Both the position numbers and the translations under genes were made by a program. Below are positions 2,784 to 35,654 of a stretch of 35,654 bases of DNA, piece by piece. A model generated the notes under the pieces. It did no database searches. It saw only the letters and a list, made by a program, of their open reading frames with translations, and was not told the origin of the DNA. The DNA is from a virus. Numbering within the stretch: position 1 is the stretch's first letter; each line of letters opens with the position of its first letter. The stretch covers positions 1 through 35,654 of IMG/VR virus record IMGVR_UViG_3300043654_000076; one strand, given 5' to 3'.

Positions 2784-2829
2784 CCTGGCCTCCGCGCTGG
2801 CCTGGGCGGCGGTGTGGTGCAGGTGCCGC

Positions 2830-2859
2830 TCGACTTGCCCGTGGTGCCGGCGTTACACT
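2830..2859 (+). promoter_or_regulatory. Candidate sigma-70-type promoter
   Basis: TCGACT (2830-2835, 4/6 to the -35 consensus), an 18-base spacer and TACACT (2854-2859, 4/6 to the -10 consensus) in the 108-base gap before the two-helix membrane protein gene. This gap shows no coding sequence. The match is weak and GC-rich sequence gives such matches by chance. Confidence 0.3.
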
Positions 2860-2891
2860 CTGGCGCTGCTGTGGCTGCTGGGGAGGCGCGC

Positions 2892-3095
2892 GTGACCATC
2901 TTCGGCCTGCTGGTGCTGCTCATCGTCCTGGCGGCGGTGTTCTGGCTGCTCTCCGCCTACGTCGTGCCGGCGCTGCCGCCGCCGATCGGCAAGGTGGTCC
3001 TCGCCGTGCTCGCGCTCCTGGTCGTGGTGTGGCTGCTCTCCGCCTTCGGCGTCGTGCCGGGCCTCGGGGCCGACTGGCGCGTGAGGTACCGCTGA
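2892..3095 (+). CDS. Two-helix membrane protein (Thivi_2564-like)
   Basis: 67 residues with two near-identical hydrophobic helices: residues about 3-22 (GLLVLLIVLAAVFWLLSAY) and 33-55 (KVVLAVLALLVVVWLLSAFG), joined by a Pro-rich turn, ending in a basic tail. The layout, including WLLSAFG near the end, resembles the small Thivi_2564 family membrane proteins. The GTG at 2892 is preferred over an upstream in-frame GTG (2814) because GGGGAGG precedes it and because the hydrophobic helix then starts at the N-terminus. The two-helix form would suit a holin or other inner-membrane phage protein, but the lysis genes are elsewhere (9.6-10.9 kb), so the role is open. Confidence 0.7.
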   Translation: MTIFGLLVLLIVLAAVFWLLSAYVVPALPPPIGKVVLAVLALLVVVWLLSAFGVVPGLGADWRVRYR

Positions 3096-6946: not shown

Positions 6947-7428
6947 GGCTGACGCTCGTCCACCGCCCCGGCCACCCCCGCGCCAACGAGCGCGGCATGG
7001 TCGACGCGCGCGACCTGTCCGCCGAGGAGGCGCGCCTGGCACGCGACGGGCCGTCGCGGGTGGCGGTGGTCGGCGACTCCCATTACGACGGCGTGCGCTC
7101 GCCGGTGGACGGCTCGGACATCGGCTCGCGCCGGAAGCGCCGGGACCACATGCGCCGGCACGGGCTCGCCGACTTCGACGACTTCAAGGGCATCTGGGAG
7201 AAGGAAGCGAAGGTGCGCGAGGCAGAGTTCCAGCCCGGCAATCGCGAGCGCCGCGAGGACGTGGAGCGTGCCATCCACGAGCTGGAGACCGGCAAGACCA
7301 AGGCCTCCCCGCGCTCCGACGCCGAGGTCCGCGGGCCTGACGCCGAGGGCCGCGACGCGGTGGCGATGCCGGAGGGCGGCTTCACTGCCGCCGCGGAGGC
7401 GGTGCTCGAGGAGCAGAAGGGAGTTTAA
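6943..7428 (+). CDS. Small conserved phage protein after portal
   Basis: 161 residues, ATGA overlap with the portal gene. The middle carries HYDGVRSPVDGSDIGSRRKR followed by RDHMRRHGLADFDDFKGIWE. The pattern 'SPVDGSxIxSRxxRxxHxxRHG' recurs in small proteins encoded beside portals of P22/T7-like phages and in some HNH-adjacent zinc proteins, but no catalytic residues are evident here. The C-terminal third is charged, helical and acidic. The stop (TAA) is part of the TTTAAA element that precedes the next gene. Function unknown. Confidence 0.75.
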   Translation: MRLTLVHRPGHPRANERGMVDARDLSAEEARLARDGPSRVAVVGDSHYDGVRSPVDGSDIGSRRKRRDHMRRHGLADFDDFKGIWEKEAKVREAEFQPGNRERREDVERAIHELETGKTKASPRSDAEVRGPDAEGRDAVAMPEGGFTAAAEAVLEEQKGV

Positions 7429-7430
7429 AA
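7424..7430 (+). promoter_or_regulatory. TTTAAAA element in SD-to-start spacer
   Basis: The order is GGGAG, TTTAAAA, TTG start (7431). The A/T heptamer fills the whole 7-base spacer between the ribosome binding site and an unusual TTG start, and supplies the stop codon of the gene before. The same layout is found at 13292 and 35425. Confidence 0.6.
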
Positions 7431-9584
7431 TTGGCACCGCTCCTGACCGTCGCCAGCGACTTCGACCCCGAGGTCAAGAAGACTCGCGGCGTCGCCCAGG
7501 CACTGCAGCGGAAGAACCCGCTCTTTTACGGCGCCGGGGAGGCGGCGCTCGCCGCGGCCAGCGGGCAGGGGCGCGGGCTGCTCCGCGGCATGGAGGACAT
7601 GCTGCCGCTCGGCCAGCGCGTCACCGACGAGGGCCGCGACTTCGAGCCGGAGACGCCGGTCGGGCGGGGCCTCCTGCGGGTGCTGGGCCTGCCGATGGAG
7701 GTGGCCCACGGGGTGGGGGAGAAGCTGAAGGACAAGCTCTCCGGCTGGGGCCTGCCCGCGGCGCTGGCCGCCGGGGTCGGCGCGGTGCCGGAGCTCGCCG
7801 CGGGGCTCGCCGAGCACCTGACGCCGCGGGTGGAGTCATTTGCCAACCTCCCCAAGAATCGCGTCATCCCTTGGAAGGACCTGACCACGGCGGAGGCCCG
7901 CGCCACCGCGTCGCAGGGGCTGCACCTGCGTCGGGAGGGTCGCGGCTACCAGGGCGCGCCGGCCGGCGTCGGCCCGAAGAACATCGGCGACCTGCGCGCC
8001 AAGCTCGACGTGGCGGTGGCCGGCGGCCTCGAGGGCGCCGACTGGTACCCCAAGGGTCGGGAAGCCATCTCCTCCTCAATGGGCTCACCGGAGGCCGGCG
8101 GGCGCCTCGCGAACATCGCCAGCGCCTACTCCCCGCAGGTGAGCGTACCGCAGTCCATCGAGCTGGCGCTGGGTCACATGGGCGCCCGCGGCGTGCTCGG
8201 TGAGGAGGGTGCCGGCCGCGCGATGCCGGCGCTCGAGACGAGCAAGGCCGCCGCGGTCCGCGGCGCACGCGGGGAGCGCCCCGGCGGCCCCAAGACGGGC
8301 CCTTTCGCCGAGGGCCTCGACCCATCGTTCGACCCCGCCAACTTCTCGCGATCGGTGAACGATACGCACATGATTCAGCTCTTCGGCTACCCGAAGAGCG
8401 GCGCCAAGACGAAGGCCCTGACCGCGTCGCAACACTCGTTCGTCATGGGTGAAATGCACCTCGCGCACAAACGGGCGGTGGAGGCCGGCGTGCTCCCACC
8501 GGCCAGCAGCGTCCACGAGGCCCAGGCCGCGGCCTGGGCCGGCAAGAGGCTCGCGGCGGGTGAGGCGCCGGAGGCGATCTTCCAACCCTTTGATAAGCTA
8601 TTCAAGAGGCATGAGGCGCCGGAGACGTTTCCCGCGCTGCCGTCCGCGCCGGGCCACATGGAGGGCGCCCGGTCGCTGCCGCTCGCCGAGCAGGAGCGCC
8701 TCGCAGAGGCGCTGCAGTGGTCGGCGCCGGGAGAGCGCGACCCAATCTGGGAGGCGCTCGAGGTGCCGCAGGGGCGGACCGGCAAGTCGCGCGAGCGGCT
8801 CCTGTCGCCGGCCCTGCGCGATGAGGCGGGGCGCCTCCACTCTGGTGGCGCCACGCACTCCGAGGTGCTCCTGGGGCTCGACCCGGAGCGCTCCTCCGCC
8901 TTCGAGGACTCCAAGCACTTCGCCTTCTCTCCGAGCGAGGCGGAGGCGGGCTTCCCCGATTCGTGGGCGTCAGGCTTCCTCGACCGGTCGGTGGACCACC
9001 CGGAGGGCAAGTTCGTCGGCCGCACCGAGGCATCGAGGCGCGCTAGCGCCGCGCAGCCGGAGGGCGGCGAGTTCGGCCACTATGAGGGCCCGATGACGTC
9101 GGAGGAGATGCTCTCTAAGCCGCCAACTTTTGAGCGGCGCGAGGCCCGTCCGATGCTCGGGCACGGGCCGACGGACGCCGCGGCGATGGACCAAGTGCGG
9201 GCCTTCCGCGCCGCGATGGATGCGCGCAAGGACGCCGGCATGCCGTGGGGCGACGAGGGCTCGGGCGCGGTCACCGCCGAGATCCTCGACCGCGTCTCCC
9301 CGCACGCCGGCAAGATGCTCGACGCGAGCCCCGGCATCGCGGACGCGCTCCGGCGCAAGAACGTCGGCGAGGGCGCGTGGGCCTCACCTGGCAGCACGCC
9401 GCGCGGGGACCTCCAGCTCCTGCGCCACAAGGTCGGCTCGCAGGGGCTCGAGGGCGTCCGCGCCGAGGTCGGCGACATCGCCCAGAAGCGCGGCATCAGC
9501 CTGCAGGAGGCGGCGGCCACGCTGGGCTTGCCGGCGGCGCTCCTCGGCCTGCAGCAGGCCGCGGCGCCCGACGAGGGCCCGTGA
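7431..9584 (+). CDS. Large virion-associated protein with embedded THM-motif domain
   Basis: 717 residues, TTG start directly after GGGAG-TTTAAAA. Residues 1-130 are Ala/Gly-rich with amphipathic, possibly membrane-active helices (LPAALAAGVGAVPELAAGLA near 103-122). Residues about 308-380 (VNDTHMIQLFGYPKSGAKTK, then SQHSFVMGEMHLAHKRAVEA and VHEAQAAAWAGKRLA) follow the pattern 'THM...G...S..Q......A.......P..QA..W', which I associate with a domain (DUF7178-like) found in phage polyvalent or internal proteins and in some toxins. The C-terminus returns to helical, Ala/Gln-rich sequence. The position after the portal suggests an internal or ejected protein. No enzyme motif could be confirmed. Confidence 0.7.
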   Translation: MAPLLTVASDFDPEVKKTRGVAQALQRKNPLFYGAGEAALAAASGQGRGLLRGMEDMLPLGQRVTDEGRDFEPETPVGRGLLRVLGLPMEVAHGVGEKLKDKLSGWGLPAALAAGVGAVPELAAGLAEHLTPRVESFANLPKNRVIPWKDLTTAEARATASQGLHLRREGRGYQGAPAGVGPKNIGDLRAKLDVAVAGGLEGADWYPKGREAISSSMGSPEAGGRLANIASAYSPQVSVPQSIELALGHMGARGVLGEEGAGRAMPALETSKAAAVRGARGERPGGPKTGPFAEGLDPSFDPANFSRSVNDTHMIQLFGYPKSGAKTKALTASQHSFVMGEMHLAHKRAVEAGVLPPASSVHEAQAAAWAGKRLAAGEAPEAIFQPFDKLFKRHEAPETFPALPSAPGHMEGARSLPLAEQERLAEALQWSAPGERDPIWEALEVPQGRTGKSRERLLSPALRDEAGRLHSGGATHSEVLLGLDPERSSAFEDSKHFAFSPSEAEAGFPDSWASGFLDRSVDHPEGKFVGRTEASRRASAAQPEGGEFGHYEGPMTSEEMLSKPPTFERREARPMLGHGPTDAAAMDQVRAFRAAMDARKDAGMPWGDEGSGAVTAEILDRVSPHAGKMLDASPGIADALRRKNVGEGAWASPGSTPRGDLQLLRHKVGSQGLEGVRAEVGDIAQKRGISLQEAAATLGLPAALLGLQQAAAPDEGP

Positions 9585-10153
9585 CGCGCGCGGCGGCGGC
9601 GCTCCTCGCGCTCTGCGCGTGCTCGCGCACCGTCGAGGTGGCGCGGCAGTCGGAGTCGCACGACTCGTCCCAGCAGAAGTGGGACGAGTCGGTGGTGGAG
9701 GACAAGCAGTCGGAGCAGAAGCGCACCGAGACGGAGGTGCGCGAGCCGACCGTGACCGAGACGGTGGGCGCCTGGGACGAGCTGGTCTTCATCGAGCAGG
9801 ACGGTGGCACCGCCTCTGCGGGGCTGATGGGGAGTGCCACCCCACCCCCGCTGCTCGACGCTGGCCAGCTCGTCCGAGTCGTCCACCACCCGGCCACCAC
9901 GAGGGTGGTCACTGGCGAGGTCAGGCGCGAGGTGGTGGTCGACCGGCGCGCCGCCGACGAGGTCAAGCGGGCCGACGAGGCGCAGTCGGTGGCGAAAGCG
10001 GACAGCTCGGTCGAGGAGCGGTTGAAGGAGGACACCCAGGTGGGCACATCGTTCCTGCTCCACCTCTTCCTGCTGGCCCTCGGCGGGGGCGCGGTGCTCC
10101 TGCTGTTCGTCTTCAGGAAGTCCATCCCGCTGCTGCGGCTCCTGCCGTGGTGA
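9581..10153 (+). CDS. Candidate unimolecular spanin (u-spanin)
   Basis: 190 residues from a GTG overlapping the previous stop. N-terminus MTRAAAALLALCACS is a lipoprotein signal with lipobox L11-C12-A13-C14, so Cys14 would be lipidated. Residues about 20-150 are highly charged, Glu/Lys/Val/Thr-rich and partly heptad-like. Residues about 158-178 form one transmembrane helix (FLLHLFLLALGGGAVLLLFVF) followed by a short basic tail. An outer-membrane lipid anchor at the N-terminus and an inner-membrane helix at the C-terminus is the T1 gp11 u-spanin layout, though this protein is longer than gp11 (131 residues). The next genes are a holin-like protein and an endolysin, which supports a role in disrupting the outer membrane at lysis. 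Function inferred from topology. Confidence 0.65.
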   Translation: MTRAAAALLALCACSRTVEVARQSESHDSSQQKWDESVVEDKQSEQKRTETEVREPTVTETVGAWDELVFIEQDGGTASAGLMGSATPPPLLDAGQLVRVVHHPATTRVVTGEVRREVVVDRRAADEVKRADEAQSVAKADSSVEERLKEDTQVGTSFLLHLFLLALGGGAVLLLFVFRKSIPLLRLLPW

Positions 10154-10554: not shown

Positions 10555-10932
10555 ATGATCGTCTACCGCATCAGGGACGGTGGCATCTTCCTCGCCAACA
10601 TGATGGGCACCTCGCTCATCGGTCGCGGCTATGCCGGCAACGGGCAGTGGAAGGACGACCCGGCGGCGACGGCGGAGCACGGGCACGGGCCGCTCCCGGT
10701 GGGGGCCTACAAGATCGGCCGCCCCTACGACCACCCGCACCTCGGCCAGCACGTCATGTTCCTCGAGCCGGTGCCCGGCACCGACATGCTCGGGCGCGGC
10801 GGGTTCTTCGTCCACGGCGAGAACGCCGCGCACCCGGGGGAGTCCTCCGATGGCTGCATCGTCGCCGAGCGCACCATCAGGGGGTGGGTGGCGAAGGAGT
10901 CCCTCCTGGTGGTGGTGCCAGATTCATTTTAA
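10555..10932 (+). CDS. Endolysin-like protein, Tlde1/DUF2778 L,D-transpeptidase fold
   Basis: 125 residues, whole protein one domain. Layout: YRIRDGGIFLANMMGTSLIG at the N-terminus, HGHGPLPVGAYKIGRP at 42-57, LGRGGFFVHGENAAHPGESS at 79-98, then DGCIVAERTIR. His87, Ser98, Gly100 and Cys101 match the HG...S-x-GC catalytic motif of L,D-transpeptidase-like enzymes. The 'GPLPxGxYxIG' and 'GRxGFxxHG' blocks match DUF2778/Tlde1, whose Salmonella member attacks the peptide stems of peptidoglycan. Placed last in a spanin/holin cassette, it is the best endolysin candidate; no lysozyme or amidase is seen. It has no signal peptide, so release would need the holin. Enzyme class inferred. Confidence 0.75.
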   Translation: MIVYRIRDGGIFLANMMGTSLIGRGYAGNGQWKDDPAATAEHGHGPLPVGAYKIGRPYDHPHLGQHVMFLEPVPGTDMLGRGGFFVHGENAAHPGESSDGCIVAERTIRGWVAKESLLVVVPDSF

Positions 10933-17796: not shown

Positions 17797-18236
17797 GCGG
17801 GCGCGGCTACATCGTCGGCCCGGCACCGGTCAAGCACTACGGGTGGCTCATGGTCCGCGTCGGCCTGCGGCCCGACGGGGTCACCCGCGGCTTCCGCGCG
17901 CTCGAGGCGCACGGCGCCGACGGGGAGCCGGTGGCCATGGTCGGCTACGACCAGTGGACCGAGACGAGCGTGGCCGTCCACATGGCGTGCGAGAGGCCCG
18001 CGGCGTGGCGCTCGCTCCTCGGCCCCGCGTTCCACTTCCCCTTCGTCGAGGCGGGCAAGCTCGTGCTGGTCGGCGGCGTGGCGGCGAGCAACGCCGCGAG
18101 CCGGAGCATGACCGAGCACATGGGCTTCCGTGAGGTCGGGCGTGTGCCCGACGGTTACAAGCCGGGGGACGACCTGATAGTCTACTCGATGAGGCGCGCC
18201 GACTGCCGGTGGATCGCGCCGGAGCAGAGGGGCTGA
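17793..18236 (+). CDS. GNAT-fold acetyltransferase-like protein
   Basis: 147 residues, GTG overlapping the nozzle gene stop. The C-terminal half reads GGVAASNAASRSMTEHMGF followed by REVGRVPDGYKPGDDLIVYS and MRRADCRW, the N-x-x-A-...-GF-x-x-x-G...Y pattern of GNAT acetyltransferases. Phages often carry this short type between tail genes. The acetyl-CoA loop (R/Q-x-x-G-x-G/A) is not obvious, so the enzyme may be degenerate or structural. The substrate is unknown. Confidence 0.7.
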   Translation: MSGRGYIVGPAPVKHYGWLMVRVGLRPDGVTRGFRALEAHGADGEPVAMVGYDQWTETSVAVHMACERPAAWRSLLGPAFHFPFVEAGKLVLVGGVAASNAASRSMTEHMGFREVGRVPDGYKPGDDLIVYSMRRADCRWIAPEQRG

Positions 18237-19273
18237 TGGGAAAGAACTCCGCGCCGCCGCCCGGCGGCACCCAGAAGTACCCCTGGCAGACCTCCGGCGG
18301 GTCGGGCCCACAAGGGCCGGACTACGTCGGCGCGGCCGGCGCGCAGGGCGCGAGTGGCGTGGCCAACATCGGCGCGCAGACCGGCGCCAACCGGCCCGAC
18401 CAGAGCACCGACTTCGCCAGCTCGCAGTGGACGCAGGGGCCCGACGGGCAGTGGCAGCAGCACCTCGGGCTCACCGGCGAGATGGCGGGGCTCTCCGGCG
18501 AGCTCCAGAACAACGCCTTTGGCGCGGAGCAGGGGCCAATGTTTGGCAACCTCGGCTCGCTCGGCGATGGGCAGCAGGCGATCGACGCCTCGTACAACCA
18601 GGCCAAGAGCCGCCTCGACCCGCAGTGGGCGCAGTCGAAGGACAACCTCGACACCCAGCTCGCCAACCAGGGGCTCGACCCGAACGCGCCCGGCGCCGGC
18701 CAGCGCGCCGAGGGCAACTTCGACCGGGCGAGGACCGACGCATACCAGACCGCGGAGAACAACGCCGTCCAGCAGGGCATTGCGCAGCAGGGCATGCAGC
18801 TCCAGCAGCGCGGCCAGCTCGCGGGCGAGGACATCGCCGGCCGGCAGGTGCCGATGCAGCAGCTCCAGCAGCTCCTCGGCTTCGAGGGCATGCCCCAGTT
18901 CGTCGGGGCCGGCGCGGCGCCGGCCACGCCCTACCTCGGCGCGATGCAGGGTCAGGGCAACTACCAGCTCGGGCAGGCGGACCAGAACAACCAGCTCATG
19001 GGTGGCTTCGGCCAGTTCGTGGGCGCGGGCCTTGGCGCCGGCTTCGGCGCGGCGTCCGACGAGCGCGTGAAGGAGGACGTCCACCGGGAGGGCCGCGAGG
19101 TGCTCCCCGGCGTGCCGTCGGCCACCTTCCGCTACAAGGGCGACAAGAAGAGACAGAAGTACCGCGGCGTCATCGCGCAGGACGTGGAGCGCGCCGGCCA
19201 CGGGCACCTCGTCCGCGAGGGCGCGGACGGCGTCAAGCGGGTGGACGCAAGCCTGCGCCCCTTCGCACTTTAA
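18236..19273 (+). CDS. Virion protein ending in an S74 intramolecular chaperone domain
   Basis: 345 residues, ATG sharing one base with the previous stop. The N-terminal 60 residues are Gly/Pro/Ser-rich; residues 60-240 are Gln/Ala-rich helices (LDTQLANQGLDPNAPGAG; DRARTDAYQTAENNAVQQG). The last 72 residues, SDERVKEDVHREGREVLPG onward with FRYK...YRGVIAQDVE, are a Peptidase_S74-like chaperone domain. Autocleavage would be expected before Ser274-Asp275. S74 domains usually cap trimeric spikes, but this body looks like a helical ejection or tail-tip protein, as in other podophages with genes here. Confidence 0.78.
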   Translation: MGKNSAPPPGGTQKYPWQTSGGSGPQGPDYVGAAGAQGASGVANIGAQTGANRPDQSTDFASSQWTQGPDGQWQQHLGLTGEMAGLSGELQNNAFGAEQGPMFGNLGSLGDGQQAIDASYNQAKSRLDPQWAQSKDNLDTQLANQGLDPNAPGAGQRAEGNFDRARTDAYQTAENNAVQQGIAQQGMQLQQRGQLAGEDIAGRQVPMQQLQQLLGFEGMPQFVGAGAAPATPYLGAMQGQGNYQLGQADQNNQLMGGFGQFVGAGLGAGFGAASDERVKEDVHREGREVLPGVPSATFRYKGDKKRQKYRGVIAQDVERAGHGHLVREGADGVKRVDASLRPFAL

Positions 19274-19285
19274 ACAGGAGCACCC

Positions 19286-19732
19286 ATGCTGCCCTACGAC
19301 CCGATCGACTCGTCCCAGGGCGCGGTGCCGCCGCCACCGCGCCGCCCGGTCCCGCCCGCGCGGGCGGCCCCCGGCGCGGTGGCGCTGCCCGGCATGGGCG
19401 CCGACCCCAACTCGCAGGCGAACGACGTCGCCGGCTACAACGAGTCGAGCGGCGAGCAGGGGATGCTCAAGGACCAGCTCGGGCTCGCCCAGGCGCTGCA
19501 GCGGCCCCAGCAGCACGGGCAGCCCTACGGGTTCGCCGCGGGCCTCGCGCCGGGCGTCACGCAGGCCGGCGGCGCCATCCGCGAGCACCTGCTGGACGAC
19601 AAGATGCTGGAGGCCCTCAAGCGCCAGCGCGGCCTGGAGGCCAACGTGCGCGGGCGCGCCGCCGCGGCCTACGCCGACCCGAGCGCCGCGTCGGGCGCCA
19701 GCCCGCAGCCCTTCAGCTTCACGGGTGAGTGA
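19286..19732 (+). CDS. Small Pro/Gln-rich virion-region protein
   Basis: 148 residues. CAGGAG lies 6 bases before the ATG, directly after a TTTAAAC (19269-19275) that contains the previous stop. Residues 10-40 are Pro-rich, 55-85 Gln-rich, and 95-135 helical (IREHLLDDKMLEALKRQRG). Unrecognised; in the ejection-protein block, so probably a small internal virion protein or chaperone. Confidence 0.7.
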   Translation: MLPYDPIDSSQGAVPPPPRRPVPPARAAPGAVALPGMGADPNSQANDVAGYNESSGEQGMLKDQLGLAQALQRPQQHGQPYGFAAGLAPGVTQAGGAIREHLLDDKMLEALKRQRGLEANVRGRAAAAYADPSAASGASPQPFSFTGE

Positions 19733-20838
19733 TGCCCGACAACGCCTACACGCTCAACAGCGACGACCCGGAGGCGCTCGAGGAGGCACGCCGGCTGGCC
19801 GAGGCGGTCGGGCGCCGCCGGCAGGTGGGCGCGGCCATGCTCGGTCCCGGCCCCTTCGGCGACGCCGGCAAGCTGCTCATGGAGCAGGGGCAGCACCAGC
19901 AGGACCAGATGGGGGAGGCCGGCCGGCAGCAGCGCGCCTTCTCCCTGGACAAGGCGCGGCAGGCGGTGGAGGCCAAGCTCGCCGGCAGCCACATCGGGGC
20001 CGAGGGGCCGCAGGAGGCGCTCGGCGGCGAGCGCGTGCCGGCATACCAGGCGGAGACGGCGCGCCTGCAGCAGCAGAACCAGTGGGAGCTGGTGCCCGAC
20101 CCGCTCCTGAAGGGCGGCATGTTCCGCGTCAACCGCGGCACCGGCGATGCCCACTACATCCGCCCCGGCCAGCTCTGGGGCAAGGAGCCGCCCGGTGGCC
20201 AGCCCGCGCCACCGGGCACCCCCGGTGGCCAGCCGGGGGTGCCCGGCGCCGGCCCCCAGGCCCCCGACCGGGGGCCGCACCTGCAGGCCCCCAACGTGGA
20301 CGACGCCGCCTACGCGGAGGGACTCAAGGACGCGGGCCCGGCGGGCGAGGAGATACGCAACCTCGACCGCTCCATTCAGAACCTGCACCAGGCCCTCGGC
20401 GTGGTGAAGGCGCGGCCCAAGGCCTTCGGCATGGGCCAGGACGTCGCCGGCTACATGGGCGGCGGGGGCCTCATCTCTGGCCCGCTCAAGAAGGTCGTGG
20501 GCCACATGCAGCAGAACCGGCGGTCGCCGGAGGACTTGCAGGCCCGCACCGTCGTCTTCCAGAACGCCGCCCAGGCGATGCGCGACCTCGGCGGTGCCCG
20601 CGCCTTCACGCCCGGCGAGCAGCAGCTATTCAGCAAGTCGCAGGTAGTCGAGGAGGACAACGCCAAGGTGATCGAGCAGAAGCTCCTCTCCGCGCTGCAG
20701 GTGGCGGCCAACCGGCGCGCCTCGCTGCGCGCGCAGGCGATGCCGCACCTCTTCCGCGCGGCCCCGCAGGCGCAGCCCAGTGGAGCCGCGCCGTCGCTGC
20801 GCGGGAAGTACGGGCTGCCGGAGGGGGCGCAGCAGTGA
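19732..20838 (+). CDS. Ejection/internal virion protein with collagen-like linker
   Basis: 368 residues, ATG sharing one base with the preceding stop (TGATG). Residues 1-130 are helical and Gln-rich; about 155-180 is a Gly-Pro linker (PPGGQPAPPGTPGGQPGVPG); residues 190-368 are helical (NLDRSIQNLHQALGVVKARP; LIEQ-type coils). The linker is encoded by two strong hairpins. No catalytic motif. Position and composition fit an internal virion/DNA-ejection protein, cooperating with the following 581-residue protein. Confidence 0.7.
   Translation: MPDNAYTLNSDDPEALEEARRLAEAVGRRRQVGAAMLGPGPFGDAGKLLMEQGQHQQDQMGEAGRQQRAFSLDKARQAVEAKLAGSHIGAEGPQEALGGERVPAYQAETARLQQQNQWELVPDPLLKGGMFRVNRGTGDAHYIRPGQLWGKEPPGGQPAPPGTPGGQPGVPGAGPQAPDRGPHLQAPNVDDAAYAEGLKDAGPAGEEIRNLDRSIQNLHQALGVVKARPKAFGMGQDVAGYMGGGGLISGPLKKVVGHMQQNRRSPEDLQARTVVFQNAAQAMRDLGGARAFTPGEQQLFSKSQVVEEDNAKVIEQKLLSALQVAANRRASLRAQAMPHLFRAAPQAQPSGAAPSLRGKYGLPEGAQQ
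20212..20246 (+). repeat. Perfect 14-bp intragenic hairpin
   Basis: CCGGGCACCCCCGG (20212-20225) is exactly complementary to 20233-20246, with loop TGGCCAG. It lies inside the Gly-Pro linker of the ejection protein gene. Short direct copies of CCCGGTGGCCAGCC occur at 20191 and 20221. Confidence 0.8.
20259..20276 (+). repeat. Second intragenic hairpin
   Basis: GGCCCCC (20259-20265) pairs with GGGGGCC (20270-20276), loop GACC, 12 bases after the 14-bp hairpin. In RNA both would form consecutive very stable stems. Confidence 0.7.
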
Positions 20839-22580
20839 GCGGCCTGATGCCCGAGGGCGGCGCGGTCGGGCCCTCCAGCGCCGTCGGCGCCGAGCAGCAG
20901 TCGCCCGGCGAGGTCCCGCTCGAGGTGCTCGCGCGCGATTTCCAGCAGGCCAGGTCGGCCGGCGACGCCGAGCTGGCGGCGCACATCGGGGGGCTCATCC
21001 AGAAGTCGACCGCGCGCGAGCGCCAGCGCGACGTGGAGTCCATCCCGCACTCCCTCCCCGCGGGCGTCGGCCACGGGCTGGTGGAGCTCGGCATGGACGC
21101 CGGGGACGCCCTCGGCGGCGTGTCGCCCCAGGCGTGGCGCGAGTTCCGCGACGACTCCGCGCCGCTCATGTCGACCACCGGCGGCAAGGTCGGCAGCGTG
21201 GTCGGGCAGGCCGCCGCGCTGGCGCCGGTCGGCTCCCTGGTCGAGGGCGCGATGGGCGCCGCGGGCGTCGGCCGCGCCCTCCCGAGGGTGGCCGAGTGGC
21301 TGAAGGGCGCGCCGCTCACCCGCGCCGCCGCCTCCGGCGCCGCGCAGGGCGCCCTCGCGTCCCCCGGCCGGCGGCTCGAGGGCGCGGCGGAGGGCGCGCT
21401 CGGCGGCGCCGCCACCGCGGCGGTGCTCGGTGGCGGCCGCCGCGCGCTCCGAGGCCAGGAGCCCACGCCGGAGGCCGCGCTGCTGGAGCGGGAGGGCGTG
21501 CCGCTCACCGTCGGCCAGCGCAACCCCACCGGGCAATTCGGCGGCAACGTGGTCACCGGCGAGGACGCCGGCCAGAAGATGCCCCTGGTGGCGCCGCTGC
21601 TCGTGCGGGCGCGCGAGGCGGCGCGGCGCGGCTACCAGAACGCCGTTGCGCGGAAGGGCACCGCGCCGGGTGCGCCGCCGCCCGACCCGGCCCTGCCGAT
21701 GGACGAGCAGCTCCAGCAGGTGGCGGAGGGCTACGAGGTGCCCTACGGCAAGCTGAAGGGGCAGCAGGTCTACCCGAGCGTGAAGACCCCCCAGGGTGGG
21801 CGCAGCCTGCTGTCGACCACCACCGGGCGCTCGCCGGGGCTGATCGAGGAGGCCGCGATGGACCTCGACGTGCCAGCCAGCGAAGAGACGCGCAAGCGCG
21901 CCAATGACTGGCTGCAGAACCAGCTCTCCATCCTGCCGGGCGGCAAGAACCGGCCGCCGGTGGCGCAGACCGTGCCGGCGGAGGACATCCACCGCATCCG
22001 CTCCAACGTGCGCGAGATGGTGCGGAAAAGGGGCACCTCCAGCGCCCACGGGGACCAGGACTTCGCCGACCTGGTCGACGCCGCCGAGGGCCACCTCACC
22101 GACACGCTCAACTCCTGGCTGCCGCCTGACGTCGCGCAGGGCATCGCCGCGGCCGACAAGCGCTACGTGGTCAAGAGCATCGTCGAGGACGCGGTGGCCC
22201 GCGCGAAGGACCGGCCGGAGGGGCTCACCCCGAACAACCTCTCTGAGGCCATCCGCGCCACGACGGAGAAGGGCAAGTACGCGCGCGGCCAGCACGCGCC
22301 GCAGGTCAAGGAGCTGCGCGACTTGGCCCAGGCCGGGCGCTCCGTGCTCGACCAACGGACGCCGAACACCGGCGCGCTCATTCTCGGCGGCGTCAACGCA
22401 CCCCTGGCCTACCTCGCCAACCACCCCGCGCTGAAGCCGATGGTGACCGGCAAGCTCGGGGTGCAGCGCGCCTTCAGGAAGCTCGAGGACTTCATGCGGC
22501 AGCACGGGGGCCAGTCGGTCATCCCGCGCGCGGCCGGCGCGGCCGGCGGCCAGATGTCGAGGGAGGACCTGCAAGAATGA
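20835..22580 (+). CDS. Large ejection protein with glycine-zipper region
   Basis: 581 residues, GTG overlapping the preceding stop. Residues 110-205 form several Ala/Gly-rich, membrane-prone segments (GGKVGSVVGQAAALAPVGSL; AASGAAQGALASPGRR; ALGGAATAAVLGGGRRALRG), resembling the glycine-zipper parts of pore-forming ejection proteins. Residues 220-560 are helical and charged (RANDWLQNQLSILPGGKNRP; FADLVDAAEGHLTDTLNSWL). No lysozyme motif found. Likely forms part of the DNA translocation channel. Ends overlapping the fibre gene (ATGA). Confidence 0.72.
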   Translation: MSGLMPEGGAVGPSSAVGAEQQSPGEVPLEVLARDFQQARSAGDAELAAHIGGLIQKSTARERQRDVESIPHSLPAGVGHGLVELGMDAGDALGGVSPQAWREFRDDSAPLMSTTGGKVGSVVGQAAALAPVGSLVEGAMGAAGVGRALPRVAEWLKGAPLTRAAASGAAQGALASPGRRLEGAAEGALGGAATAAVLGGGRRALRGQEPTPEAALLEREGVPLTVGQRNPTGQFGGNVVTGEDAGQKMPLVAPLLVRAREAARRGYQNAVARKGTAPGAPPPDPALPMDEQLQQVAEGYEVPYGKLKGQQVYPSVKTPQGGRSLLSTTTGRSPGLIEEAAMDLDVPASEETRKRANDWLQNQLSILPGGKNRPPVAQTVPAEDIHRIRSNVREMVRKRGTSSAHGDQDFADLVDAAEGHLTDTLNSWLPPDVAQGIAAADKRYVVKSIVEDAVARAKDRPEGLTPNNLSEAIRATTEKGKYARGQHAPQVKELRDLAQAGRSVLDQRTPNTGALILGGVNAPLAYLANHPALKPMVTGKLGVQRAFRKLEDFMRQHGGQSVIPRAAGAAGGQMSREDLQE

Positions 22581-23674
22581 ACCGCATCGACAAGGCGCTG
22601 GTGGCGGTGGCAGCGGGCGCGATCGCCCTGGTGGTCGGCGTGCAGTGGGAGCGCGAGCTGCGCCTCCGCCGCGCGGGGAACGGTGAGGCCCACTTTGAGG
22701 CCTCGCCGTTCCCTTCCATCCGCCCGACGCTGGTGCCTGAGGCGCGCGCGGCGCGGAACGGTGGAGGCACCTTCAGCCTCTACACGCCGGGCAACCCGGT
22801 GGTCACACAGACACCCATCACGGTGACCTGGGCGAACAACACGCTGAACGACATCGCCACCGAGATCACCGACTCCCTGGACCGCTCAGGAAAGGGCGGC
22901 ATGCTCGCACCGCTGGGGCTCACCACCGGCTCGGCCGGCGCGCCCTCCCTGACGTTCAACAGCGCGACCACCACCGGCCTCTACCTCAACGGCACTGGGG
23001 TGCGGGTGAGCGTGACCGCGACCGACTCCTTCAAGTTCGACCCCGCAGTGAACACCTCCATCTTGCTCTTCCAGCTCGGCAACAACGGCGCGGTCACCAC
23101 CCCCTCGCTGAGCTGGACCTCGGAGCCGAACAGCGGCCCCTACCGCAACGGCGCCAACGATATCCGCTGGGCCATCGCGGGCGCGGACGTCCTGAAGTTC
23201 TCCACCGCCGCGGTGGCGCCGCTCGCGCTCACCCCGTTCTCCGCCACTCGCGGCGTCCCTTTCGTCGGTGTGGCCACCCCCGCGTCGCCGAGCAACGGGG
23301 ACCTCTGGTACGACACCACCACCCTGCGCTTCGGCGGGCAGGTGAACGGCATCACCGCGGGCGTGTGGCAGACGCTATCGCTCGGCTCGGGCTGGACCGC
23401 GGGGGCGCCCGCCCCGGCGGTCACCAAGCAGCTCGACGGCACTGTCCGCTACCGGGGCAATGCGACGTGGGCGACCGGCGGCAGCAGCACCCCCTTCACC
23501 GCCGCCGCGGGATACCGGCCGGGGGCACAGTTCTACGCTATCTTTCCCGACAACAGCACCGGCACCGCCGCCAACGCCACCGTGAACACCGGCGGGGTGT
23601 GGACCGTTCAGTCCGCCTTGACCAACACCCATGCCTACTACTTCGACAACGTCACCTACCTGGGCGAGAACTGA
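22577..23674 (+). CDS. Tail fibre/spike-like protein with N-terminal membrane helix
   Basis: 365 residues, ATGA overlap. Residues 7-24 (ALVAVAAGAIALVVGVQW) are a strong hydrophobic helix behind a short basic head, as in a membrane anchor. Residues 60-105 carry the tail-fibre adapter pattern: GTFSLYTPGNPVVTQ, then TWANNTLNDIATEITDSLDR and GGML. The rest is Thr/Ser/Gly-rich beta repeats (GSAGAPSLTFNSATTTGLYL; FVGVATPASPSNGDLWYDTT), common in fibre shafts. An exported N-terminus is odd for a virion fibre. Confidence 0.78.
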   Translation: MNRIDKALVAVAAGAIALVVGVQWERELRLRRAGNGEAHFEASPFPSIRPTLVPEARAARNGGGTFSLYTPGNPVVTQTPITVTWANNTLNDIATEITDSLDRSGKGGMLAPLGLTTGSAGAPSLTFNSATTTGLYLNGTGVRVSVTATDSFKFDPAVNTSILLFQLGNNGAVTTPSLSWTSEPNSGPYRNGANDIRWAIAGADVLKFSTAAVAPLALTPFSATRGVPFVGVATPASPSNGDLWYDTTTLRFGGQVNGITAGVWQTLSLGSGWTAGAPAPAVTKQLDGTVRYRGNATWATGGSSTPFTAAAGYRPGAQFYAIFPDNSTGTAANATVNTGGVWTVQSALTNTHAYYFDNVTYLGEN

Positions 23675-23675
23675 G

Positions 23676-23683
23676 TTTAAAAA
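23676..23683 (+). promoter_or_regulatory. TTTAAAAA element at fibre gene start
   Basis: GAG, TTTAAAA, ATG (23683): the palindrome separates a weak GAG from the start codon. It immediately follows the TGA of the previous fibre gene. Confidence 0.55.
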
Positions 23684-24714
23684 TGGCACCCCCGAGCCAG
23701 GCACAGATCGATGACATCCTGCGCCGCCTCGCCGCCATTGAGGCCTCTTCCGGCAGGGTGTCCTCGGTGCTGGCCCCTCTCACCGGCAACGGACTTCCGG
23801 CGACCCCACTCGGCCTGCAGACGCCACTCGCTGCGGCCCTCGGTGGTACCGGGGTCGCTGGATACAGCCAAGGTGACCTCCTGTATGCCTTGAGCTCCGT
23901 GCAGCTCGCGCGTCTTGCCGCCGGCCCGGTCAACACCGTCCTCACCAGCAACGGACCAGGCGTCGCGCCCTCGTGGCAAGTCGTCACCGGAGTCTCCGGC
24001 GGCTGGCAGACGCTCTACTCGATGGACCTCACCGGGCAGGCGAATCAGAACCTCCTAACCGGCGGCGACGGGGTGAAGACCATCGGCGGCAAGCCGTGGA
24101 CGCTGAACAACTCCGCGCATGTCACGACCGCGCGCATCGACAACGGCGTCGGATTCACGTTCACCGCGAGCGACGCAACCGGCGGCACGCTGAGCGCCAA
24201 GATTACCGACCTCTATGCCAACGCCAATCTGCTCCACGACGACATAGAGCTGTGGGTGCGGTCGATATTCACTGTCCCGGCCACCGCGGGCGCCTATCCC
24301 GTCGTCGGCTTCGGCGACTCCAACACGTTCACGAATGGAGCGAATTTCGACGCCATCACTGGCCCTCGATACACCGCCGGGCTGGCCTGGCTCAGCGTCT
24401 TTCAGATCAACGGGAACAACAACCCGTCCTCCCTGAACAATCCATATAGTAACAGCCTGACGGATGACGTCGTCGTTATCCGAATGCACTCGGCGTATTC
24501 ATATTCATTCTTCAGCGGCGCCTGGGTCGGGCCAAACTTCCCCGTCTTCAATACCCTCCGCAACCGGGGGAATATCATTTATCCGGTGCAATCAACGCAG
24601 TTGACCGGCAAGGAGCCCGTCAACGTAAGCGATATGGTGATCGGCCTTGCGGTCGGCGGCGCGGCCAACGCTCAACAGGTAGCGACCCGTATCGATCTGG
24701 TGGTGCGCCAATGA
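23683..24714 (+). CDS. Tail fibre / receptor-binding protein
   Basis: 343 residues; the ATG at 23683 is chosen as the longer open frame upstream overlaps the previous fibre gene. N-terminus is helical (SQAQIDDILRRLAAIEAS); residues 45-100 carry the fibre repeat LAAALGGTGVAGYSQGDLLY ... NTVLTSNGPGVAPSWQ. Residues 105-343 are one beta-rich domain (WTLNNSAHVTTARIDNGVGF; ELWVRSIFTVPATAGAYP), of the lectin or jelly-roll style. From about 24000 the base composition falls clearly below the neighbours (GC by eye near 55%) and A/T-ending codons increase, as expected for a recently acquired host-recognition domain. Confidence 0.78.
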   Translation: MAPPSQAQIDDILRRLAAIEASSGRVSSVLAPLTGNGLPATPLGLQTPLAAALGGTGVAGYSQGDLLYALSSVQLARLAAGPVNTVLTSNGPGVAPSWQVVTGVSGGWQTLYSMDLTGQANQNLLTGGDGVKTIGGKPWTLNNSAHVTTARIDNGVGFTFTASDATGGTLSAKITDLYANANLLHDDIELWVRSIFTVPATAGAYPVVGFGDSNTFTNGANFDAITGPRYTAGLAWLSVFQINGNNNPSSLNNPYSNSLTDDVVVIRMHSAYSYSFFSGAWVGPNFPVFNTLRNRGNIIYPVQSTQLTGKEPVNVSDMVIGLAVGGAANAQQVATRIDLVVRQ

Positions 24715-24772: not shown

Positions 24773-25078
24773 ATGATTTTAAAATGGCGCACGGCCTTCG
24801 TCATCCTGGCCCTCTCGCTGGTGCTGCTCGCGGGCATGTACCTATGCCTGCGCCAGGGCGGCGACACCTCGCAGAAGCTCTTCTCGGACCTCGCCACCGC
24901 GCTGGTGCTCCTCGCCGTCAGCATGGCCGGCAAGAGCAGCGTGGAGCACCTCGCCGACGGCGGCGGGGTCCGCGGCGCGATGAGGTCCTTGCTCACTGAG
25001 GCCCGGCCAGGCGATGCTCCGGCGCAGGGCACGACCACCGTGACCGAGACGTCCAAGACCACCGAGGTGAAGCCGTGA
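24773..25078 (+). CDS. Two-helix holin-like membrane protein
   Basis: 101 residues, ATG at 24773 after GGGGCGG; a TTTAAA lies right after the start codon (ATGATTTTAAAATGG). Helix 1 is about residues 7-26 (AFVILALSLVLLAGMYLCLR), helix 2 about 38-53 (SDLATALVLLAVSMAG). The tail is hydrophilic and Thr/Lys-rich. Size and topology are holin-like, so the phage may have a second holin or antiholin besides the 10161 gene. The stop overlaps the next GTG. Confidence 0.65.
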   Translation: MILKWRTAFVILALSLVLLAGMYLCLRQGGDTSQKLFSDLATALVLLAVSMAGKSSVEHLADGGGVRGAMRSLLTEARPGDAPAQGTTTVTETSKTTEVKP

Positions 25079-25851
25079 AGCTCCCGCTCGCAGCACTCCT
25101 GCTCCTCGCCGCGCCCGCGGCCCTCGCTCAGTACATCCCGCCGGTGGTGGGCTCCGTCACGGCGTCCAACGCGAGCTGCTCCTCCACCTCCCAGGCCTAC
25201 CAGGTGCTGGCCGGCGTGGCCGGCGCCAACTCCGTCGGCGTGTCGATTCCGACCTCCACCGCCACCTTCGCCTTCTTCGGCTCCCGCGACGGCGGCGCGA
25301 GCTGGGCGCCGCTCCCCGGCGGCCCCGACGCGACCACCAGCGGTGGGAACTTCACGACCGGAGTCACCCTCTCCGGCGCGGCCTGGAATGGGGTGGTGTC
25401 GGTTGTTGGCATGCGCCAGTTTTGCCTCATTGCCACCGCGTTCACCTCGGTGGCCGGGCAGGTCTGGGTGCAGCCGTCCACCGCGCCAGTGGTTCCCGCG
25501 CAGCTGCTGTACGCGAGTGTGTCGAGCGGCGGCGCGCTGAAGGTCGGCTCACCAAACACCGCTGGCGCCGTACCGACCCAGGTGTCGGTCACCACCAGTG
25601 CGACGCGCATCTTCCTGGCCTCGCCCTTCGACTGCTCGGTCACGGTGCAGAATGAGAGCAATGCGCAGGTGGCCACTTGCGGGTCCACCAATGCGGTGAC
25701 TGCAGGTGCCATCGGCATCACGCTCAAGAAAGGCACCGCCGCGGGGGACGGCACTGGTGGCTCAATGTCCTTTCCGAGCGGCGCCGACATCTGGTGCATC
25801 GCCGACGCGAACACCCTCAACGTCGGTATCCAACCCTTCACCTGCCCGTGA
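25075..25851 (+). CDS. Exported beta-sandwich protein
   Basis: 258 residues, GTG overlapping the preceding stop. MKLPLAALLLLAAPAALAQ is a classic Sec signal with cleavage after ALA. Residues 40-140 follow a module often seen in phage tail proteins, 'SxGVSI..(T)ATFxFFGSRDGGASWxPL...GQVWVQPS'. The second half (VTTSATRIFLASPFDCSVTV; SGADIWCIADANTLNVGIQP) is also beta-rich with Cys that may pair. Exported form of a virion-type module; the role (periplasm, host surface, virion decoration) is unknown. Confidence 0.68.
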   Translation: MKLPLAALLLLAAPAALAQYIPPVVGSVTASNASCSSTSQAYQVLAGVAGANSVGVSIPTSTATFAFFGSRDGGASWAPLPGGPDATTSGGNFTTGVTLSGAAWNGVVSVVGMRQFCLIATAFTSVAGQVWVQPSTAPVVPAQLLYASVSSGGALKVGSPNTAGAVPTQVSVTTSATRIFLASPFDCSVTVQNESNAQVATCGSTNAVTAGAIGITLKKGTAAGDGTGGSMSFPSGADIWCIADANTLNVGIQPFTCP

Positions 25852-25859
25852 GGCCCACC

Positions 25860-26342
25860 GTGCGCTACCTGTCCCTCGCGCTCTCGCTCGCCCTGCTGCT
25901 CCTCGGCGCCGGCATGGTGGCCAGCTCCGCCCGCGCGGTGGCCGGCTCCAACGTCGACAACGGCGCGCCCCCGGTGCCGGGCCCGACGACGCTGTCGAGC
26001 TTCTTGGTCAACGGCGTGGTCACCGCCGCGAGCTACGGCGGCACGGTGCTGCCGGCGCGGGCCTTCCTGGTGCAGGCGGTGCGCTTCCGCGTGTCGGTCG
26101 CCGCCTCCGGCGCCGGCACCGTCACCCTCCGCGCCAGCGACGGGACGAACAACTGCGACGCGGCGGTGAGCTGCGCCCTGGCGACCACCAACACGAGCCT
26201 CCGGCAGGCCGCGGCACCGAGCGCCGGGAGCTGCACCTTCCCGGCGTCGGCGACCATCACCTACTCCGTGGCCAGCTCCACCTGCGCCGTCACCCAGCCG
26301 CTCGTCCTGGGGACGGTGGACGTGGAGGGGACGTGGCAGTAG
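25860..26342 (+). CDS. Exported Cys-containing beta protein
   Basis: 160 residues, GTG 8 bases after the previous stop. Signal peptide MRYLSLALSLALLLLGAGMV ... ARA. The mature part is beta-rich with four to six Cys (DGTNNCDAAVSCALATTNTS; SAGSCTFPASATITYSVASS; STCAVTQP), suited to disulphides in the periplasm. It may be co-expressed with the preceding exported protein as a pair. Its 3' end overlaps a convergent minus-strand gene by 53 bp. Confidence 0.65.
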   Translation: MRYLSLALSLALLLLGAGMVASSARAVAGSNVDNGAPPVPGPTTLSSFLVNGVVTAASYGGTVLPARAFLVQAVRFRVSVAASGAGTVTLRASDGTNNCDAAVSCALATTNTSLRQAAAPSAGSCTFPASATITYSVASSTCAVTQPLVLGTVDVEGTWQ

Positions 26343-35467: not shown

Positions 35468-35654
35468 TCACGGTGACACCGGCGCAGCCGCCAGCAGCTC
35501 GACCAGCTTGTCGGCCATCCTGCCCCACGCCGCCGCCTCCGCCGCCACCCGCGCCACCCGCGCCGCCTCCGCCTCCGCCTCCGCCTCCGCCGCCGCCGCC
35601 TCCGCCGCCGCCGCCGCCTCCTCCGCCGCCCGCGCCGCCCGCGCCGCCGCCACC
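35468..35654 (-). CDS. Alanine-rich protein, C-terminal part
   Basis: The frame is open to the window edge, so the gene starts beyond it; 61 residues visible. An Ala/Glu/Arg helical repeat (AAARAARAAEEAAAAAEAAA ...) leads to AWGRMADKLVELLAAAP. Proteins with A-A-x-A-rich helices ending in a '(W)xxMADKLVELL' motif are common in high-GC phages and bacteria. The Ala part is encoded by simple repeats. The function cannot be judged from the fragment. Confidence 0.5.
   Translation of the reverse strand, partial: VAAARAARAAEEAAAAAEAAAAEAEAEAEAARVARVAAEAAAWGRMADKLVELLAAAPVSP
35529..35654. repeat. CCGCCT/CCGCCA/CCGCGC simple repeat
   Basis: Plus strand is almost only CCGCC-type 6- to 9-base units (CCGCCT, CCGCCA, CCCGCG). 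It encodes the Ala/Glu helix on the minus strand and could vary in copy number. Confidence 0.75.

Follow-up and report, generated by a model that had tools for sequence, protein, structure and literature searches.

Two proteins encoded at the end of the late operon of a virus contig from a soil-type phage, here called A and B, are read with moderate confidence as late, Sec-exported, disulfide-bonded and beta-rich accessory proteins that belong to an exported receptor-binding module of some Mx8-like podoviruses. As judged from the sequence, the support consists of the coding, export signals, position and cysteine enrichment of A and B and, in relatives, of a signal peptide joined to the fibre domain where that domain canonically begins. 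A and B are orphans of a recurrent arrangement that is undescribed as far as the searches reached.

Late operon end and proteins A and B

The window, which is the whole stretch of DNA that was analysed, contains 35654 bases with a GC content of 71.4%. The Mx8-type structural genes identified in it encode a terminase small subunit, a terminase, a portal (phrog_12082) and a capsid protein (phrog_9953). The capsid protein shows 62.8%, 58.8% and 57.8% identity with those of BUCT555, Mx8 and Mx9, respectively. The capsid family was found in 1 of 19 genomes of the phylum of a Bdellovibrionaceae assembly versus none of 14 control genomes. A GCC-rich run at 35575-35654 forms the contig end and is possibly an assembly edge. 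The plus-strand late genes, which are convergent at their end with minus-strand genes, close with the following features in this order:

22577-23674, plus strand: tail fibre of 365 aa, with a hydrophobic segment at residues 6-24 and a podoviral fibre N-terminal domain at about residues 59-131
22592-22648, plus strand: membrane segment at the fibre N-terminus (residues 6-24)
22742-22750, plus strand: A-R-A of the fibre just before the canonical fibre N-terminus (A)RNGGG
23683-24714, plus strand: second fibre-like protein of 343 aa, without signal and without Cys
24773-25078, plus strand: small holin-like protein with two hydrophobic segments and weak family matches
25075-25851, plus strand: protein A, 258 aa, signal peptide at residues 1-18, six Cys in the mature part, predicted all-strand
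25848-26342, plus strand: protein B, 164 aa, signal peptide of about 30-32 residues, four Cys in the mature part, predicted all-strand; final late gene

The start codon of A is a GTG that overlaps the stop codon of the preceding gene, and B starts at the GTG at 25848, which overlaps the stop codon of A. A longer TTG frame at 25677 was considered for B and rejected in favour of this GTG. The codon model scores 0.19 per codon for A versus 0.08 in the best alternative frame, and 0.31 versus 0.09 for B; both are real open reading frames, as proposed earlier.

Export signals were assessed with a rule-based Sec-signal test made for this analysis. Four of the 36 gene N-termini pass the rule, namely those at 22577 and 24773 and those of A and B, and all of them lie in the last five late genes. 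None of the 8418 interior 45-mers of the window proteins passes. Among 193 Shine-Dalgarno-like starts opening at least 90 aa, only the three belonging to 22577, A and B pass. The predicted signal ends in ALA followed by Q in A and in AVA followed by G in B, which is a Sec signal with an AxA-type end in both. Hydrophobic segments occur in 6 of the 36 window genes, and four of these belong to the final five genes of the late operon (hypergeometric test over the 25 plus-strand genes, 0.0055). These results bear out two statements of the earlier note, that A and B carry clean signal peptides and that four of the last five late genes encode exported or membrane products. The holin-like gene is also part of the cluster as described there, but it lies between the second fibre-like gene and A, not between A and B. 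A second holin candidate of 93 aa with two strong hydrophobic segments is encoded at 2814-3095, immediately before the terminase gene. A and B have no lipobox and no further hydrophobic segment, and neither has the features of an o- or u-spanin.

A and B contain six and four Cys, respectively, whereas the six genes from 18209 to 24714 contain none in 2159 aa. This corresponds to 10 Cys in 422 aa for the two proteins versus 0 in 2159 aa for the six preceding genes (Fisher 1e-8) and versus 103 in 11050 aa for all other window genes (p 0.009). The even Cys numbers are compatible with disulfides forming in the periplasm. With their clean signals and even Cys counts, A and B appear as clearer exported parts of the window than its fibre.

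No homologue of A or B was found in any collection searched. Searches with tblastn against phages gave A at E 0.01 and 5 and B at 5, and no homologue was obtained from pattern searches of viral_contigs, from 31 relative records or from PDB sequences. A phmmer --max search of 19589 ORFs of 130 loci gave weak matches alone (best E 0.058), as did tblastn on 80 fibre loci (best E 0.35, no homologue). Matches in Pfam, PHROGs and NCBIfam were at chance level alone. Single-sequence AlphaFold models of A and B were poor (mean pLDDT 38.9 and 44.5, respectively) and contained strands without helices; fold searches with these models returned nothing at E 0.001 or below. A virion-type beta-sandwich had been claimed for one of the two proteins, and this claim was not confirmed: among protein families A matches phrog_1958 (minor tail) best, at a weak E of 0.34. 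The observation made in the earlier note is thus partly confirmed, being sound except for the virion module. The pair had also been suggested for a search in relatives; A and B were not found together elsewhere in phages, viral_contigs, the 31 relative records or the 130 loci, which include the fibre loci. Two candidate relations were dropped. A high profile score between the two halves of A, obtained with single-sequence profiles, was an artefact of a 10-residue overlap between the two pieces. The profile score of B with Mx8 p66 exceeded those of its 12 shuffles, but this pair was one of 28 compared, and a relation is not claimed. Since A and B have no homologue, they are linked to exported modules by position and type only.

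Fibres with export signals and the genes that follow them

The fibre N-terminal domain is a widespread podoviral domain that normally starts with MPRNxSGTY. In the domain alignment, BUCT555 and contigs G001, G006 and G023 start with M-x-R, two residues before the conserved R, whereas Mx8, Mx9 and the window have an N-terminal extension with a hydrophobic stretch. A signal peptide fused exactly at the canonical domain start was identified in 13 distinct relatives, including the Myxococcus phages Mx8 and Mx9. Directly before [TSA]R[ND], 12 of them have A-x-A as the predicted cleavage motif and the remaining one has T-W-A. The fibre samples are non-random and comprise the best 80 of 515 confirmed loci from a domain scan of viral_contigs, 72 stretches (many unrelated) found by a DNA pattern for A-x-A before the domain, and the best 80 of 555 loci from a third scan of viral_contigs with an exported-type query. 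The DNA pattern selects for A-x-A, and L237, L242, L250, L260 and L279 were found through it alone, so that their A-x-A is by selection; among the eight pattern-independent exported fibres (Mx8, Mx9, L132, L133, L134, L141, L170 and L365) the motif is A-x-A in seven and T-W-A in one. The main set contained 106 inspected fibre ORFs, of which 17 carried a signal, duplicates included. A start codon within four codons of the canonical start occurs in 88 of the 89 other rows versus none of the 17 signal rows, and inspection of the DNA of Mx8 p64 revealed no alternative in-frame start before the domain. Inspection of a second set of 78 fibre ORFs, 46 of them new, added one fibre with a signal (L365).

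The domain is present as a single copy in all 13 records examined, which are the complete Mx8 and Mx9 genomes and 11 virus contigs that are possibly fragments. Its mean identity is 0.565 among exported fibres and 0.546 among others, and it is thus equally conserved in both. In the domain tree the exported state requires four label changes (3-5 in bootstraps) versus a shuffle mean of 12.3, and none of 500 shuffles was as low; exported fibres may have a single origin. After removal of duplicates and of fibres with at most 200 aa after the domain start, 12 exported fibres contained 38 Cys in 3807 aa versus 103 in 34329 aa for 68 others (about threefold; Mann-Whitney 6e-5), with L141 counted via its truncated copy L235 (0 Cys; the full L141 fibre has 4 Cys in 381 aa). 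The difference in density persists against 17 others with a GC of at least 0.63 (p 0.0012), and the Cys of exported fibres are located mostly in the C-terminal part (tip). In bacterial assemblies with Mx8-like capsid genes (27 assemblies, from 28 of 65 loci), nine domain copies were detected in eight assemblies, none of them with a signal. In titles and abstract openings no description of exported phage tail fibres of this kind was found; a term search of the accessible text of a myxophage review (PMC6070905) gave no mention of tail fibre, receptor or signal, and the accessible text of the Mx9 genome paper (PMC10281127) contains nothing on exported fibres.

The fibre of the window has an ATG that overlaps the preceding stop codon, with AGGGAGG upstream, and possesses the conserved Mx8-like podoviral N-terminal domain; its residues 56-157 show 55% identity to Mx8 p64. 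Its A-R-A occupies the same place as the predicted cleavage site of the 13 exported fibres, but 34 residues past the membrane segment, and no cleavable signal lies directly before the domain. The charges flanking the membrane segment are compatible with either orientation, and the protein has no Cys. Its domain shows an identity of 0.555 to exported fibres and 0.511 to others, and groups weakly with non-exported fibres in the tree (86/80). The window fibre is a variant, with a membrane anchor and a linker. The second fibre-like protein at 23683-24714 has no family match in profile searches of Pfam and PHROGs.

Several relatives encode exported proteins after the fibre, where 'beta-rich' is a by-eye reading of the sequence. 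In Mx8, fibre p64 is followed by exported p66 and, after it, by p67, a protein that fails the signal rule and resembles GDSL esterases (PF13472, 1.5e-6, slightly short of the cut-off). Mx9 p15 consists of a signal, a short part and an esterase half (phrog_6102, 2e-11). The exported part of p15 is also present in Mx8, split over two frames at L048 26863-27137 (Mx8 record 37862-38136); this counterpart lies beneath the annotated minus-strand p65 and is unannotated or broken. In L141, the exported fibre is followed by an exported 133-aa protein (7174-7575), an exported 810-aa protein (7579-10011) and an M15 peptidase. The 810-aa protein, which has a signal peptide, matches NF048003 (head-spike-fibre domain, 3e-12) and PF13472 (GDSL esterase, 1e-12), and is a predicted exported depolymerase-like spike. 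L132 encodes a signal-bearing 193-aa protein following a pectate-lyase-like protein without a signal, and L187 also encodes a short exported protein. In G001 and G023 (L052 and L053) the fibre has no signal and the operon is closed by a 138-aa exported protein after a peptidase. BUCT555 and ppBjS10J-1 have no such proteins at the operon end. At 10555-10932 the window encodes a protein with a match to the Tlde1 domain (PF10908, 1e-12) and a weak one to YkuD L,D-transpeptidase; its homologue in L134 is located directly 3' of the exported fibre.

Loci with less than 2.5 kb downstream and duplicates were dropped from a count of downstream exported ORFs, leaving 61. By the signal rule, such an ORF is present on the sense strand in 4 of the 8 loci with an exported fibre and in 10 of the 53 others, several of these ten looking spanin-like by eye, and on the antisense strand in 2 of 8 and 0 of 53, respectively. 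The count is only suggestive because two of the eight exported-fibre loci also pass on the antisense strand. The simple gene caller used on the loci misses genes and served as a guide alone. Exported proteins recur at this place in the operon, but by sequence they are different proteins.

Interpretation and rival explanations

The proposed module would lie at the end of the late operon and comprise a fibre with a signal or an anchor, exported beta-rich proteins and/or a GDSL esterase, followed by holin and endolysin. The export signals of its proteins would be in use, disulfides would form in exported A and B, both would bind surface glycans, and the module would act on the cell envelope or on virions at cell lysis. 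Several points do not fit easily: G001 and G023 have an exported last protein yet a normal fibre, BUCT555 and ppBjS10J-1 lack such proteins at the operon end, and the anchored window fibre, with no Cys and an A-R-A 34 residues on, is a deviation that the module fails to explain. The earlier note had interpreted the cluster as an uncharacterised cell-surface system, and this is partly supported: relatives bear signal peptides both on a tail fibre and on the beta-rich proteins or esterases after it, but A and B are only candidates for a place at the surface and their pair was met nowhere else in the collections searched.

What exported fibres do can be read in several ways. That the signal lies strictly where the fibre usually begins, and that the domain is retained and occurs only once, points to exported fibres still encountering virions. 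The fibre and accessory proteins might accordingly fold in the periplasm, with disulfides forming there, and be added to the short tail at lysis, which we regard as a tentative possibility. In P22, tailspikes can be added to finished heads in vitro as a last step. The virion-fibre domain, as well conserved in exported fibres as in others, its single copy in 13 of 13 records and a predicted mature end that equals the normal fibre start all speak for such assembly, whereas the window fibre is anchored and lacks Cys, and a sole domain copy might also indicate that virions rely on a different protein. It is also conceivable, though rather unlikely, that exported fibres act together with beta-rich proteins and esterases on the surface glycans of the infected cell, masking them or stripping them off, and so prevent superinfection or re-adsorption of progeny. 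The signal-bearing GDSL esterases of Mx9 p15 and L141 (with Mx8 p67 similar but failing the signal rule) and the late position next to the lysis genes would fit this; retention of the tail-binding N-domain would not be required, however, and the proteins would need a way across the outer membrane before lysis.

The place of A and B directly after the holin-like gene recalls periplasmic lysis or exclusion factors such as a spanin, a T4 RI-like antiholin or a Spackle-like inhibitor. According to the accessible text of PMC8385771 and PMC7677548, phage T4 has two proteins located in the periplasm, namely RI, whose signal is cleavable, and Spackle. A and B are predicted to be all-strand and lack a spanin lipobox or a C-terminal membrane segment, and such a role is improbable. 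That the choice of start codons in a GC-rich genome has created spurious signals, on proteins that are ordinary cytoplasmic virion proteins, is suggested by the high Ala/Leu content and by a predictor that is rule-based alone; it is very improbable given that no interior segment among 8418 passes, that no alternative in-frame start precedes the domain in Mx8 p64 and that A-x-A is found in 12 of 13 exported fibres. Returning to the exported module, a more far-reaching proposal, offered as speculation, is that some short-tailed phages Sec-export their fibre and accessory receptor-binding proteins, cut the signal exactly at the normal fibre start, fold these proteins with disulfides outside the cytoplasm and complete the virion as the cell lyses. 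The window phage would then be a variant in which the fibre is tethered to the membrane and two accessory proteins are secreted.

In the established view, tailed phages are built wholly in the cytoplasm, and export signals on their tail fibres run against that expectation. A signal at the start of the tail-binding domain of the only fibre of its type either challenges this view or reveals an exported decoy or receptor-stripping module. The question is directly testable since Mx8 and Mx9 grow on Myxococcus xanthus, and the exported fibres are the part of the finding most deserving of experimental attention.

Comparison with known systems

Mx8 (p64, p66 and p67) and Mx9 (p14 and p15) share with the window the same structural module, a fibre in which an export signal precedes the common N-domain, and subsequent exported proteins and lysis genes. 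Mx8 has been placed in a P22-like lineage, and the fibre N-domain is presumed to be kept for tail-hub binding (PMC10386132, accessible text). The fibres of Mx8 and Mx9 have a cleavable signal, whereas that of the window has an anchor and a linker, and the exported proteins encoded after these fibres show no sequence homology with A or B. Downstream, Mx8 encodes a GDSL esterase and an NlpC/P60 protein, neither of which the window has there, and Mx9 encodes an esterase half, likewise missing from that place in the window, and a last protein near-identical to that of Mx8.

In the Mx8-like phages G001 and G023 the last late gene encodes a short exported beta-rich protein (138 aa) in a position like that of B, but the fibre has no signal and the protein is not related in sequence to either A or B. 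The IMG/VR contig L141, with an exported fibre and then exported proteins, has a comparable arrangement with no sequence relation to A or B. Pantoea WceF is likewise tailspike-like with an export signal, but in the accessible text of PMC7949094 it is the product of a bacterial gene in a polysaccharide cluster, with a Tat signal and a beta-helix. T4 RI and Spackle, which are known lysis-inhibition or exclusion proteins, are likened to A and B by description alone, as phage proteins located in the periplasm, the site also proposed for A and B.
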